A stretch of DNA of 64,000 nucleotides from NCBI RefSeq assembly GCF_000759715.1, contig NZ_BBLU01000001.1, forward strand, positions 310,001 to 374,000, written 5' to 3'. Shown here in pieces: positions 2,928 through 21,075 of this stretch. This DNA comes from Demequina mangrovi. GTDB lineage: Bacteria > Actinomycetota > Actinomycetes > Actinomycetales > Demequinaceae. The position numbers and the translations under genes are program-made. Under the pieces are notes generated by a model that saw only the letters and a list, made by a program, of their open reading frames with translations, had not been told where the DNA came from and did not search any database. The stretch's first letter is position 1, and each line of letters opens with the position of its first letter.

Positions 2928-3013
2928 AGGCGTCCTCCCTCGTCACGGCCACATTAGCGGGCGAGGCGCTCCAGAGCAGCGCGTGCGCGGAGCGTCGTCG
3001 CGAGTGCGCTCCG

Positions 3014-3019
3014 TAGAAT
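3014..3019 (+). promoter_or_regulatory. Leaderless -10 element (TAGAAT)
   Basis: TAGAAT lies 7 nt before GTG 3027 and overlaps the upstream ATG at 3018, so the GTG is the likely true start. Confidence 0.6.
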
Positions 3020-3026
3020 GGAGCGA

Positions 3027-4547
3027 GTGTCCGCACCCGTCCCTCCCCTGGCCCGCCAGCACCGCATCGACCCCGACGAGCTCGAGATCACGCTCCGCGT
3101 GCTGGCCTCGCTCAGCGAGGTGGACGAGCAGGACCCGGACTTCCTTGCGGTGCGCAACGCGACCGCGAGCATGATCAAGTCCGTCAAGCGCAGCCGGCGC
3201 CGCGAGCGCCGCAACGCCATCAACGTCGCCGACTCCGCCATCGTGGCCGCGACGGCGACCGGCGCATCGGACCGGATCGACGATGAGACGCGCGGGCTGA
3301 CCCTGACGGCCCGCGCCGCCGCTCCCACCGTCGGCGACTACGTCAAGCCGCGCCCCTGCTACATCTGCAAGCAGAAGTACACGCAGGTCGACGCGTTCTA
3401 CCACCAGCTCTGCCCCGAGTGCGCGGAGACCGGGCACGCGAAGCGCCACGCCCGTACCGATCTGAGGGGCCGGCGCGCGCTGCTCACCGGCGGCCGCGCG
3501 AAGATCGGCATGCACATCGCGTTGCGGCTGCTGCGCGACGGCGCGGACCTCACCCTCACCACACGCTTCCCGCGCGACGCGGTGCGCCGCTTCGCCGGGA
3601 TGCACGATGCGGGCGACTGGCTCCACCGGCTCACCGTCGTCGGCATCGACTTGCGCGACCCGGCGCAGGTGGTCGCGCTCGCCGACTCCGTGGCGTCTCA
3701 CGGCCCGCTCGACATCCTCATCAACAACGCCGCGCAGACGGTGCGCCGCTCCCCTGGCGCATACGCGCCGCTGGTGGACGCCGAGGCGGTGCCGATCGAG
3801 CCGGGGCTGTGGCCGGAGGGTTCGGGTCCGAGCCTGCTCACGCTCGGCCGCACCCACGATGCGCACCCTGTGAGCATCGAGGCGTCCGCGACGGCTCACC
3901 CTCTGCTCGCCTCAGCCCACGCGGCCGAGACGGGCATGCGCGAGGCTCAGCGGCTCACCGAGCTGGCGCTCGCGCCGGGATCCTCGTCGCTCGAGCGGTT
4001 GGCCGACGGCTCGGCGATCGACGCCGGCGGGCTGGTCCCGGACCTGCACGACACCAACTCGTGGGTGCAGGCGGTGGGCGAGGTGAGCCCGTTGGAGCTG
4101 CTCGAGGTGCAGCTGTGCAACTCGACGGCGCCGTTCATCCTCATCAACCGCCTGCGCCCGTCGCTCGCGGCGGCGGCCGCCGCATCGTCCACCGGCCGTG
4201 CGTACGTGGTGAACGTCTCCGCGATGGAGGGCGTGTTCGAGCGCGGCTACAAGGGGCCCGGGCACCCGCACACGAACATGGCGAAGGCGGCGCTCAACAT
4301 GCTCACCCGCACGAGCGCACGCGAGATGTTCGAGTCCGACCAGATCCTCATGACCAGCGTCGACACCGGCTGGATCACCGACGAGCGCCCGCACCCCACC
4401 AAGGTCCGTCTCGCCGAGGAGGGATTCCACGCGCCGCTCGACCTGGTCGACGGCGCCGCGCGCGTCTACGACCCGGTGGTGCGCGGCGAGGCGGGCGAGG
4501 ACCTGTTCGGCGTGTTCCTCAAGGACTACGCGCCGTCGAAGTGGTGA
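3027..4547 (+). CDS. Zinc-ribbon-containing SDR family protein with no catalytic Tyr
   Basis: 506 residues from GTG 3027. Residues 1-100 are a charged helical region. A zinc-binding CYICK...CPEC module follows at about 110-130. A Rossmann SDR domain begins with TGGRAKIG and includes LINNAAQ, the SDR NNAG-like motif. The usual YxxxK active site reads HPHTNMAKAA, so Lys is present but the Tyr position is Thr. My recollection is that this substitution is shared by a distinct SDR subfamily with the same zinc module, so it is unlikely to be an error. Substrate and reaction are unknown. The gene ends 4 bp before the small SH3-like gene and probably forms an operon with it. Confidence 0.85.
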   Translation: MSAPVPPLARQHRIDPDELEITLRVLASLSEVDEQDPDFLAVRNATASMIKSVKRSRRRERRNAINVADSAIVAATATGASDRIDDETRGLTLTARAAAPTVGDYVKPRPCYICKQKYTQVDAFYHQLCPECAETGHAKRHARTDLRGRRALLTGGRAKIGMHIALRLLRDGADLTLTTRFPRDAVRRFAGMHDAGDWLHRLTVVGIDLRDPAQVVALADSVASHGPLDILINNAAQTVRRSPGAYAPLVDAEAVPIEPGLWPEGSGPSLLTLGRTHDAHPVSIEASATAHPLLASAHAAETGMREAQRLTELALAPGSSSLERLADGSAIDAGGLVPDLHDTNSWVQAVGEVSPLELLEVQLCNSTAPFILINRLRPSLAAAAAASSTGRAYVVNVSAMEGVFERGYKGPGHPHTNMAKAALNMLTRTSAREMFESDQILMTSVDTGWITDERPHPTKVRLAEEGFHAPLDLVDGAARVYDPVVRGEAGEDLFGVFLKDYAPSKW

Positions 4548-18011: not shown

Positions 18012-18775
18012 CCCCACGTCCCGCCCACCCCTACTTCGACACGGGCTTCGCCCCGCTCGCCCACCGCGGCTTCTCGCGCGACGGGCTCGAGAACTCGATG
18101 GCGGCCTTCCAGGCGGCGGTGGACCTCGGCTTCCGGTACCTCGAGACCGACGCCCACGGCACCGCGGACGGCGTCGCCGTGGCGTTGCACGACGAGTCGC
18201 TCGACCGCACCACGGACGGCGAGGGCGTGGTGGCCGAGCTGGCGTGGTCCCGGGTCAAGGAGGCGCGCATCGGCGGCGTCGAGCCCGTGCCCCTCCTCGA
18301 GGACGTGCTCGGCACCTGGCCCGACGTCCGGGTCAACATCGACGTCAAGGCCGTGTCCGGCATCGTCCCCGTCGCCGAGGCGATCGAGCGCACCGGCGCC
18401 CATGACCGCGTGTGCGTCGCCTCGTTCTCGGCCGAGCGCCGCGAGGCCACCGTCGACAGGCTCAGCCGGCCGGTGGCCACGTCCGCGGGCACGTCGGAGG
18501 CCGCGCGGTTCTTCGTCGGCGGGCTGCTCGGGCTCGGGACGCTGCGCAGCCTGCGCGAGATCGACGTGCTGCAGATCCCGTGGCGGGTGGGGATGATGCC
18601 GGTGCTGACGCAGCGCCACATCCGCCTCGCGCACGAGGCGGGCAGGTCGGTCCACGTGTGGACCGTCAACAAGCGCGAGGAGATGGAGTCGCTCATCGAT
18701 GCGGGCGTGGACGGCATCGTCTCCGACCGTGCGGACATCCTCCGCGAGGTGCTCGAGTCCCGCGGCATGTGGTGA
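18008..18775 (+). CDS. Glycerophosphodiester phosphodiesterase
   Basis: 255 residues, translationally coupled to the hydrolase by a 4-bp overlap. GDPD signatures are complete: LAHRGFSRDGLENSMAAF (HR and E), FRYLETDAHGTADG (ED), ALHDESLDRTTDG (HD), NIDVKA and HVWTVNK. It hydrolyses glycerophosphodiesters to glycerol-3-phosphate and an alcohol. There is no signal peptide, so it acts in the cytoplasm. Confidence 0.93.
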   Translation: MTPRPAHPYFDTGFAPLAHRGFSRDGLENSMAAFQAAVDLGFRYLETDAHGTADGVAVALHDESLDRTTDGEGVVAELAWSRVKEARIGGVEPVPLLEDVLGTWPDVRVNIDVKAVSGIVPVAEAIERTGAHDRVCVASFSAERREATVDRLSRPVATSAGTSEAARFFVGGLLGLGTLRSLREIDVLQIPWRVGMMPVLTQRHIRLAHEAGRSVHVWTVNKREEMESLIDAGVDGIVSDRADILREVLESRGMW

Positions 18776-18779
18776 GGCC

Positions 18780-19172
18780 GTGAACAAGACCGTCCCCACG
18801 GATGTGCCGGTCGAGGCCTTCGTCGCCGGGGTCGAGCCCGCGCGTCGGCGCGCGGAGGCCGAGTCGGTGGTCGCGCTCTTCACCGAGGTGACCGGGGTCG
18901 AGCCGGTGATGTGGGGGCCGTCGATCATCGGCTGGGGCTCGGTGCACTACCGCTACGCGTCGGGACGCGAGGGCGACATGCCCGCGCTGGGCTTCTCGCC
19001 GCGCAAGGCGCAGCTCACCTTCTACGGCTTCACCGAGACCCCCGAAGGCGCCGGCCTGCTCGCGCAGCTCGGACCGCACACGCGCAGCGTCGCCTGCGTC
19101 TACGTCAAGCGGCTCGACGCGATCGACCTCACGGTCCTGACGGACCTCGCCGAGCTAGCGTTCGCACGTTGA
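18780..19172 (+). CDS. DUF1801 (YdhG-like) domain protein
   Basis: 130 residues from GTG 18780, 4 bp after the GDPD stop. The sequence ARRRAEAESVVALF...VMWGPSIIGWGSVHYRY...ALGFSPRKAQLTFY is typical of the DUF1801 family, whose biochemical role is unknown. It is the third gene of the hydrolase-GDPD operon. Confidence 0.85.
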   Translation: MNKTVPTDVPVEAFVAGVEPARRRAEAESVVALFTEVTGVEPVMWGPSIIGWGSVHYRYASGREGDMPALGFSPRKAQLTFYGFTETPEGAGLLAQLGPHTRSVACVYVKRLDAIDLTVLTDLAELAFAR

Positions 19173-19175
19173 CTC

Positions 19176-19194
19176 CCGTCGATTCCCAATGACA
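19176..19194 (+). repeat. Left arm of a long-range inverted repeat
   Basis: CCGTCGATTCCCAATGACA, starting 4 bp after the DUF1801 stop. An identical copy in reverse orientation lies at 19576-19594. The next 16 bases inward match the partner at 11 of 16 positions. Confidence 0.85.
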
Positions 19195-19247
19195 AAGGTG
19201 AACGGTGTGACAACCCGTGCGCGGCCCTGGTCGGGAGCGCGCGGGCG

Positions 19248-19436
19248 ATGAGCGATGACGACAGGAAGCCGACGATCCGGCCGCGTCCCTTCGCTGCGGG
19301 CATACTGCTCGGCTCCGTCACCGGCTTCCTCATATGGATCGCGACGGGCACGTTCGCCCTCTTCCCGGCCTTCGTGAGCATCGGGTTCGTGCTCGGGCTC
19401 GTGTTCTCCCGGGCGAGCGGCGGCGGCCCGCAGTAG
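19248..19436 (+). CDS. Small two-helix membrane protein
   Basis: 62 residues: a charged N-terminus (MSDDDRKPTIRPRP), then two hydrophobic helices (about 15-33 and 37-55) and a short Ser/Gly tail. This organisation looks coding rather than random, but I do not recognise a family. It lies alone between the arms of a 19-bp inverted repeat and is separated from the upstream operon by 75 bp. Confidence 0.6.
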   Translation: MSDDDRKPTIRPRPFAAGILLGSVTGFLIWIATGTFALFPAFVSIGFVLGLVFSRASGGGPQ

Positions 19437-19575
19437 CCGGCGGCTGCCACTCCGGGACGCCCCGAGCGCCACAGATGGGCCGCACGCTGCCCTTCACCCG
19501 CGGCGGGCGTCGGGTGGCCCCGCCCTACGCGACCCTTGCCCCGCATCGGTCACCCATGATCACACCTGTCACACG

Positions 19576-19594
19576 TGTCATTGGGAATCGACGG
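19576..19594 (-). repeat. Right arm of the long-range inverted repeat
   Basis: Exact reverse complement of 19176-19194, 5 bp from the der stop. The distance between outer ends is 419 bp. Confidence 0.85.
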
Positions 19595-19599
19595 CGGGG

Positions 19600-21075
19600 C
19601 TACTTCTTGCGGCCCCGCTTCTCGCGGACGCGGACCGAGATCTGGATCGGGGTGCCCTCGAAGCCGAAGTTCTCGCGCAGGCGACGCTCGATGAAGCGGC
19701 GGTACTGCGGGTCCAGGAAGCCCGAGGTGAAGATGACGAAGCGCGGCGGACGCGTGGCGGCCTGCGTCGCGAACAGGATCTTGGGCTGCTTGCCCGAGCG
19801 CACGGGGTGCGGGTGCTCCGCGACCAGCTCGCCCAGGAACGAGTTGAGACGGCCCGTGGAGATGCGCTGGTCCCAGCTCGACAGCGCGAGCTCGAGCGCG
19901 GGCAGCAGACGGTTGGTGTGCCAGCCCGTGGTCGCAGACAGGTTGACGCGCGGCACCCACGAGTGCTGCACCATGTCCTTCTCGATCGAGCGCTCGAGCA
20001 GGAAGCGCTCGTCCTCGCCCACGAGGTCCCACTTGTTGAACACGAAGATCATCGCGCGGCCCGCGTCGACCACCTGCTGCACCACGCGCAGGTCCTGGTC
20101 GGTGAGCGGCGTCGACGCGTCGAGCAGCACGAGCGCGACCTCGGCACGCTCGATCGCCGTCTGCGTGCGCAGCGACGCGTAGAAGTCCGCGCCCTTGGTC
20201 ATGTGGACGCGGCGGCGGATGCCCGCGGTGTCTACCAGCGTCCACGTGCGGCCGCCGTACTCGACCTGCTCGTCGACGGGGTCGCGGGTGGTGCCCGCGA
20301 GCTCGTTCACCACGACGCGCTCCGTGCCGGCGAGCTTGTTCAGCAGCGACGACTTGCCGACGTTCGGACGGCCGACCAGCGCGATGCGGCGCGGAGCGTC
20401 CTCGTCGACCTCGATCTCGTGCATCTCGGTCGGCAGCACCGCCATCGCGGCGTCGAGCAGATCGCCCGTGCCGCGGCCGTGCAGCGCCGAGACCGCGATG
20501 GGCTCCCCGAGGCCGAGGTTCCACAGCGCGGCGGCCTCGAGCTCGCCCTGCGGGCCGTCGACCTTGTTCGCGGCGAGCACCACCGGCTTGTCGGCCTTGC
20601 GCAGCAGGCGTACCACCTGCTCGTCGGTCGCGGTCGCGCCGACCATCGCGTCGACGACGAAGACGATCGCGTCCGCCATGTCGATCGCGGCCTCCGCCGC
20701 CTGCGCGACGGAGAGGTCGATGCCGGTGACGTTCTTCTCCCAGCCGCCCGTGTCGAGCAGCGTGAAGTCGCGACCGGCCCACTCGGCGCGGTACGCGACA
20801 CGGTCGCGGGTGACGCCGGGCGTGTCCTCGACGACGGCGAGGCGCTTGCCGATGATGCGGTTGACCAGGGTCGACTTGCCGACGTTCGGGCGACCCACGA
20901 TCGCGAGGACGGGCAGCGCCTCCTCGGTCAGGGGCTCGGGCTCGCCGACGAGGTCCGCGAGGTCCTCCGGGCTGAGGTCGTAGTCCTCGAGGCCGGCGCG
21001 CAGCGCGGCCTCACGGATCTCGTCGAGCGTCTCGGGCGCGTCCGACTCGTGCGGAGCGGGGAGCTCGTCAGTCAT
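19600..21075 (-). CDS. der: Ribosome-associated GTPase Der (EngA)
   Basis: 491 residues. Two tandem GTPase domains, each with G1 ([10 protein letters not shown] and [11 protein letters not shown]), DTGG/DTAG G3 motifs and NKVD/NKWD G4 motifs, then a C-terminal KH-like domain. The length and order match Der, needed for 50S subunit assembly. The acidic N-terminal extension of about 55 residues is common in actinobacteria. The ATG overlaps the plsC stop by 4 bp, making it the last gene of the tyrA-cmk-plsC-der string. Confidence 0.97.

Follow-up and report, generated by a model that had tools for sequence, protein, structure and literature searches.

The inverted repeat and its surroundings

The window analysed here is a stretch of 64,000 nucleotides of a Demequina genome, a 2.97-Mb draft that we call G000. 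At the locus of interest, two inverted arms enclose a small open reading frame between a DUF1801-family gene and der:

18780..19172, + strand: DUF1801-family gene (PF08818; Pfam)
19176..19210, + strand: left arm, with the outer tip and the 15-mer CGATTCCCAATGACA at 19180-19194; arm score 41.1
19189, 19198 and 19207, + strand: the left-arm words ATGAC, GTGAA and GTGAC, spaced 9 bp apart
19248..19436, + strand: small open reading frame (ORF) of 62 aa, above no Pfam family cut-off
19560..19594, - strand: right arm, with tip and words as in the left arm; arm score 41.1
19600..21075, - strand: der (EngA-type GTPase), whose stop adjoins the right arm

An inverted-repeat search gave arms of 35 nt each, complementary at 30/35 positions (86%) and separated by 349 nt, whose outer 19 bp are identical throughout (19/19). 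The 19-mer is present twice in the window, once per strand, where shuffled sequences lead one to expect 0.02 occurrences (≤3 mismatches). The first-pass annotation of this DNA had described a perfect 19-bp repeat, extending to about 30 of 35 positions, with arms less GC-rich than their setting and within 5 bp of neighbouring stop codons. Our measurements agree with this description: the left arm begins 3 bp beyond the DUF1801 stop at 19172, 5 bp lie between the right arm and the der stop at 19600 (minus strand), and 10/19 bases of the 19-mer are G or C in GC-rich surroundings. No Rfam match was obtained in 18700-20100 up to E 1. Three explanations had been offered for the repeat: a MITE-like element carrying the small ORF, a pair of operators, and a long-range RNA structure.

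A dispersed family of paired half-elements

The search for more copies of the 19-mer, proposed in the annotation, was productive: G000 contains 39 matches (≤3 mismatches), and the reversed control gave 0. Its 15-mer core CGATTCCCAATGACA gave 49 matches at ≤2 mismatches (reversed control 0) and 77 at 3 mismatches (control 5). By our own count, 42/49 cores fall in inverted pairs 84-114 bp long, and of the seven other cores two lie in the arms of the window, two at L101 and one each at L081, L103 and L105. G000 has 28 of these short pairs, all gene-free. Nine long or multi-arm spans hold, by reading, unrelated genes (one span was checked in Pfam); pairs were searched as inward-facing arms only, so the orientation of these spans carries no evidential weight.

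A pattern for tight pairs, run over 84,980 species, found 27 stretches, every one of them from four named Demequina genomes. Among the matches listed, the four richest genomes hold approximately 24-38 copies each; the element sets of relatives consist of best-scoring listed matches, so these are lower bounds. Copies within one genome mostly have diverged centres, unlike the products of a recent transposition burst. A viral source was rejected, one exact pattern being present in 0 contigs of a viral collection (viral_contigs), the search of plasmid relatives gave no match, and searches of the open-access literature, screened by title or abstract start, listed no paper about such elements in Demequina.

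A full element in G000 consists of two inverted half-elements, measuring 84-114 bp end to end. Each half-element is composed of a tip of about 8 bp (CGATTCCC) followed by GTGAC-like words 9 bp apart, and the centre between the halves is variable. In G000 these words lie at position 10 in 45/56 and at position 19 in 52/56 half-elements; further words are fewer (position 28 in 25/56, position 37 in 18/56). The positions in G006 and G017 agree with those in G000. G023 has words at 10, 19 and 38, and positions 28 and 37 are not enriched there. In a set of 164 half-elements drawn from seven genomes, two GTGAC-like words stand at distance 9 in 246 cases, against 2.3 expected from shuffles, and at distance 18 in 111, against 1.7. 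Tips and first 9-bp words are conserved, while centres drift. Element lengths fall very roughly into 9-bp steps (59-60, 68-70, 84-86, 93-94, a broad 97-106, 108-110 and 114), and among the matches listed for G023, G039, G040 and G043 all 27/27 elements measure 101-104 bp.

Two minor features of individual elements were noted. At L086 in G000 (2514-2623) the element centre contains a long hairpin (GAAGGGGCTGGTGGGAATCAACGG...), and the same site in G006 and G023 holds a simple GC-rich hairpin. Outside elements, over a distance of 40 bp, tip copies in the same direction are enriched (13, of which 7 in G023) relative to oppositely directed ones (2). The same-direction copies lie 10-29 bp away, and several are tandem duplications (L199, L205 and L207 in G023, L251 in G043, L089 in G000).

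The small ORF is a resident of the locus

The product of the small ORF, which reading of its sequence suggests to be of membrane type, was found in 6/44 Demequina genomes, one copy in each, and in 6/6 of these its ORF lies between DUF1801 and der. Arms surround it in 2/6 alone, G000 and G006. Because the ORF occupies the same place without arms in 4/6 genomes, it is an ordinary resident gene of the DUF1801-der locus and not cargo, and the window therefore presents two half-elements flanking a resident gene. The annotation had suggested looking for an empty site between the two genes; four arm-less relatives contain the ORF itself at that place.

This bears directly on the idea of a 411-bp MITE-like unit bearing the 62-aa ORF. 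The inward-facing arms around the ORF in G000 and G006 fit such a unit, and there is a similar-looking span of 1204 bp that contains an AbiEi/DUF559-type gene. The arm-less residence of the ORF rules it out, unless the ORF arrived at this position independently in several lineages; in addition, the other long spans hold unrelated genes and the 28 pairs of G000 are short and gene-free. We consider a cargo-bearing unit very improbable. The part of the original MITE-like proposal that survives is the dispersed, insertion-like repeat family, which is real. What we have here are, with high confidence, dispersed paired-arm elements, and in the window a resident gene that lies between two half-elements.

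A gap of 75 bp separates the DUF1801 stop from the small ORF, and the left half-element lies within it; no partner for the right arm was found about 100 bp to its left. A model, R1, was built from 27 elements of G000. At this locus it matches 19547-19590 alone (E 0.17); that it misses the two arms as a single element is expected, the span being 411 bp. A candidate second element in the window, the best R1 match there (E 0.0036), has arm gaps of 7 and 4 bases and was taken as a chance match. In G006 the DUF1801-side arm has the same position and a near-identical sequence, and the der-side arm is present in two copies, separated by 175 bp and accompanied by another repeat.

Between the small ORF and der, relatives with or without arms carry a second repeat, approximately CTGTTTCAGCAATTCCTAAAACAG and variants (L141 ~2980-3350 in G006, L143 ~1180-1430 in G023, L354 ~1740-1900 in G049), which may represent another palindromic repeat family.

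Occupied and unoccupied sites

Ten gene ends, taken from ten sites occupied in G000, were fused into one query, which located the orthologous sites in six relatives. We read 57/60 sites; two unmatched sites in G022 and L099 of G020, which lies at a contig edge, were left out. The scan at each site used the arm type of G000 and started after the stop, and so misses arms that contain the stop. A full element beside the stop was present in 15/57 orthologous gaps, so that occupied and unoccupied orthologous sites both exist. This count excludes L094 of G017, where the element is 187 bp away. At L099 of G006, the DSQ-stop tail and a core match revealed a left arm only, and no right arm was recognised. 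The arm type of G000 was found at 0/27 sites of G011, G020 and G022 and, for L091, in 0/5 relatives; the L093 gap is short and arm-less in 6/6 relatives. By reading, a different palindrome occupies some element-free gaps, namely those of L087 and L091 in G011 and G020 and of L083 in G022; at L087 and L091 of G011 and G020 it is the palindrome CCAACGGA...TCCGTTGG, for which L087 of G020 and L091 of G011 also came up in the search for its copies.

The tip encodes a DSQ-stop tail in 3/10 gene sets (twice in G006, once in G017), and a fourth set has a DCQ-stop tail in G017. In addition, the DUF1801 protein of G006 ends in GDSQ-stop; a GDxDA tail is present in 12/20 listed relatives' copies, and the rest vary. 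The GDxDA-type tail is also absent from the DUF1801 protein beside the arm in the window, as it is from some arm-less copies, e.g. in G010. Tails rewritten by an arm, where relatives have other tails, are most simply explained as insertions into gene ends. Together, the occupied and unoccupied sites and the apparently arm-encoded DSQ-stop tails point to insertion.

The annotation had also suggested a check for target-site duplication. The check, which covered 30 elements with lengths of 2-10 and offsets from -2 to +2, was negative: no duplication of ≥3 bases recurs. The only 2-base excess is CG (both ends in 26/30; at offset -1 in 9/30, the latter by our reading from CCGT...ACGG flanks), as fits the self-complementarity of CG. 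A GT flank before the CG end is common, not constant.

Inheritance at the same site is clear for L087 between G000 and G006 (identity 0.86) and for L085 between G000 and G023 (0.83). For elements ≥80 bp in general, identity at shared sites (0.704, n=18 pairs) is hardly higher than elsewhere (0.667, n=149).

Placement at gene ends

None of the 86 elements (0/86) has its centre inside a called ORF. Of these, 84 were scored for their neighbours, one being dropped for a gap >700 bp and one for the lack of a called neighbour; gene calling relied on a simple script that scores codon usage and was trained on the window, in place of a standard gene finder. Convergent genes flank 38/84 elements, against 32/277 other neighbouring gene pairs in the same stretches (Fisher p 1.7e-10), or 12/124 when this background is restricted to gaps ≥60 bp; a cruder first tally of 13/31 is superseded by these figures. 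The median distance from arm to stop is 8 bp (n=108) and that from arm to start is 73.5 bp (n=60, minimum 13). Exactly -13 from the stop is the distance for 12/108 arms, which means that the stop codon is the TGA inside the CAATGA of the arm.

Such a strong bias towards convergent 3' ends is also what might be seen if the elements were functional, non-mobile sites of the host, i.e. paired sites for a chromosome-organising or termination protein that are selected at convergent ends, their sequences tracking the evolution of this protein in each species. The conservation of tips and first words over drifting centres suits this explanation, as do outer sequences that are largely common within a genome and differ between species, and the presence of another hairpin at some sites of element-free relatives (L086 in G006 and G023, L083 in G020). 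It has more difficulty with the patchy presence of the elements (the 0/27 sites of G011, G020 and G022), with arm-encoded tails resembling insertions into gene ends, and with the different palindrome carried by G020 and G011 (9 and 8 copies), which fall among the species with the arm type of G000. We regard host sites as less probable than insertion.

Arms are largely independent of their partners

The pairing of arms was examined in 84 elements by shuffling partners within each genome. Identity within elements was.881 at positions 1-15, against.870 with shuffled partners (p.03),.765 against.740 at positions 16-23 (p.015), and.461 against.474 at positions 24-33 (p.84). In a 27-sequence alignment, the pair measures observed are attained by 51 to 318 of 500 shuffles. 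A single 33-nt arm folds no better than expected by chance (mean z +0.47). For whole elements folding is good (mean z of -6.9 relative to mononucleotide shuffles), and the RNA of the window repeat is predicted to fold (z -5.1); such folding results from both arms following one consensus. An arm follows the consensus of its genome far more than it follows its partner, which fits arm-wise recognition by a protein acting in trans. Therefore, hairpin pairing does not look like the main constraint on the arms.

According to another explanation, the elements are RNA hairpins, either bidirectional terminators or stabilisers of mRNA 3' ends, whose function is the pairing of the arms. The good folding, the placement at convergent ends, the near-perfect palindromes seen in several G017 copies and the slight excess of identity within elements at positions 1-15 and 16-23 are in its favour. 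This excess is only.011 and.025, however, and disappears at positions 24-33, shuffled partners often equal the observed pair measures, and the folding is already accounted for by the shared consensus, which makes RNA hairpins a rather improbable explanation. A terminator scan of 18700-20000, limited to loops of 3-8 bases, found 0 where shuffles expect just 0.2, and so says little. Of the long-range RNA structure put forward for the window, the predicted folding holds, but arm partners are hardly better matched than arms taken from different elements. The proposed operator pair is partly apt: each arm behaves like a separate protein site, but the arms are dispersed repeats, mostly beside gene ends.

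The ends differ between species

Matches to R1 were found in 26/44 Demequina genomes. The model was built on elements of its own genome, and matches elsewhere are accordingly biased toward similar inner words; R1 already contains the columns concerned, which partly preselects the 9-bp signal seen with other types of arm, and its match listing counts many palindromes twice, once per strand. In the copies read in other species the inner words are alike, and the outer sequence is different and largely common within a genome:

G024 (4 copies) and G054 (6 copies): outer end CGGTTTGGCCCAC or close
G044: outer end CGGTTCTGCACAC or close in 3/4 copies, CGCTCACCACAC in the other copy
G009: at least two kinds of outer end, TTCCCAAGGGTC and CTCCGCACGGA

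At E 1e-5, R1 matches 10 of 149 genomes of the order, seven from Demequina (including G000) and three from another family; these three show a similar build, yet have other ends. At E 1e-6 over 296 genomes of the phylum, G000 alone matches.

R1 has no match in G020 or G011. These genomes carry the palindrome CCAACGGA...TCCGTTGG (L341-L350), in 9 and 8 copies respectively, with an inner CGACACGCC motif and no visible GTGAC words; it was not found in G000, G006 or G022. One of the G020 copies has a duplicate 1.7 kb away. In a tree of der proteins, several forks of which are weakly supported, G020 and G011 lie inside the group with CGATTCCC-type ends, and this nesting suggests that one element family was replaced by another in their lineage.

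Comparison with known systems

MITEs are short, non-coding, have terminal inverted repeats and reach many copies, and the Demequina elements share all of this, together with occupied and unoccupied sites. They differ in that no target-site duplication was found and in their poorly conserved interior; no parent insertion sequence was seen among the nine arm-bounded long spans, which hold other genes.

REPINs, as described by Bertels and Rainey (2011; PMC3116915), are non-autonomous, extragenic elements of about 100 bp that fall into several groups and have two conserved inverted ends with a variable spacer; compensatory changes are there called common. The Demequina elements are likewise extragenic, with conserved inverted ends and a less conserved spacer. 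In contrast to REPINs, their single arm is not a palindromic hairpin (by the z value given above), covariation within elements is hardly present, amounting to a slight excess at most, and the ends bear words 9 bp apart. The RAYT family (Y1 transposase, PF01797) gave matches in 0/44 Demequina genomes and in 5/14 control genomes, and was rejected as the mobiliser. The elements work like REPIN-type insertions and, with Y1, palindromic ends and compensation all failing as marks of membership, are not shown to be REPINs.

CGTC REP dimers are a further parallel and, with REPINs, come closest to the Demequina elements in build and placement. PMC3733652 describes inverted dimers whose convergent copies lie mostly ≤20 bp from both 3' ends in two species, with no dedicated transposase known; the units have 8-9-bp stems, 4-5-bp loops and a CGTC end, and the word "actinobacteri" is absent from its main text. 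Inverted dimers, convergent 3' ends and the lack of a known dedicated transposase are common to both systems. The Demequina arms differ by having no hairpin and by their words 9 bp apart.

The 9-bp period of the arms recalls BldC, which according to PMC5859096 binds 9-bp direct repeats head-to-tail, one protomer on each, with extended arrays possible and the consensus AATTxxxx(C). The Demequina unit is GTGACnnnn, in two inverted arrays. A BldC-related excision factor is discussed in PMC11963761. A BldC-like or excisionase-like protein acting on the arms is, by this analogy, a lead only.

A possible mechanism and its consequences

We favour, with a probability of about 0.55, REPIN-like insertions that are recognised arm by arm and placed by a system acting in trans. 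Each arm would be bound by a putative protein, perhaps a small one that lines up head-to-tail on the 9-bp repeats, and this protein together with a putative recombinase would insert the elements. Copies would be retained at sites where the damage is small, often between the ends of convergent genes, and may there terminate transcription in both directions. No autonomous copy, transposase or binding protein was identified by the Pfam search for PF01797 or in the nine long spans that were read.

More tentatively, the elements might constitute a new class, in which 9-bp units form paired inverted arrays that carry a genome-specific tip, and which would be copied by machinery that resembles neither RAYTs nor known insertion sequences, through a protein that lines up on each arm and joins the ends. 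If so, tip specificity would switch between species and whole element populations would be replaced, perhaps as in the G020/G011 lineage, and the class may reach beyond Demequina, to judge from the three genomes of another family. The best-understood short palindromic repeats of bacteria rely on RAYT; the Demequina set is RAYT-free and has an internal 9-bp spacing. A similar build extends across much of the genus, and perhaps beyond, with end sequences that change between species. The copy number and the many sequenced species offer a route to the partner protein, to the mode of spread and to the role of the elements at gene ends.

The half-elements of the window are possibly remnants of two full elements. 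A possible parallel is L101 of G000, the 1204-bp span in which single arms lie on either side of the AbiEi/DUF559-type gene; in what appears from the sequence to be a similar neighbourhood, G039 (L214) has two complete pairs. At the der locus of G017 (L144 ~1290-1500) DUF1801 and the small ORF are absent; by eye, a GDPD-like gene enters a 192-bp pair at its left arm and stops at the TGA of this arm, and der comes next.
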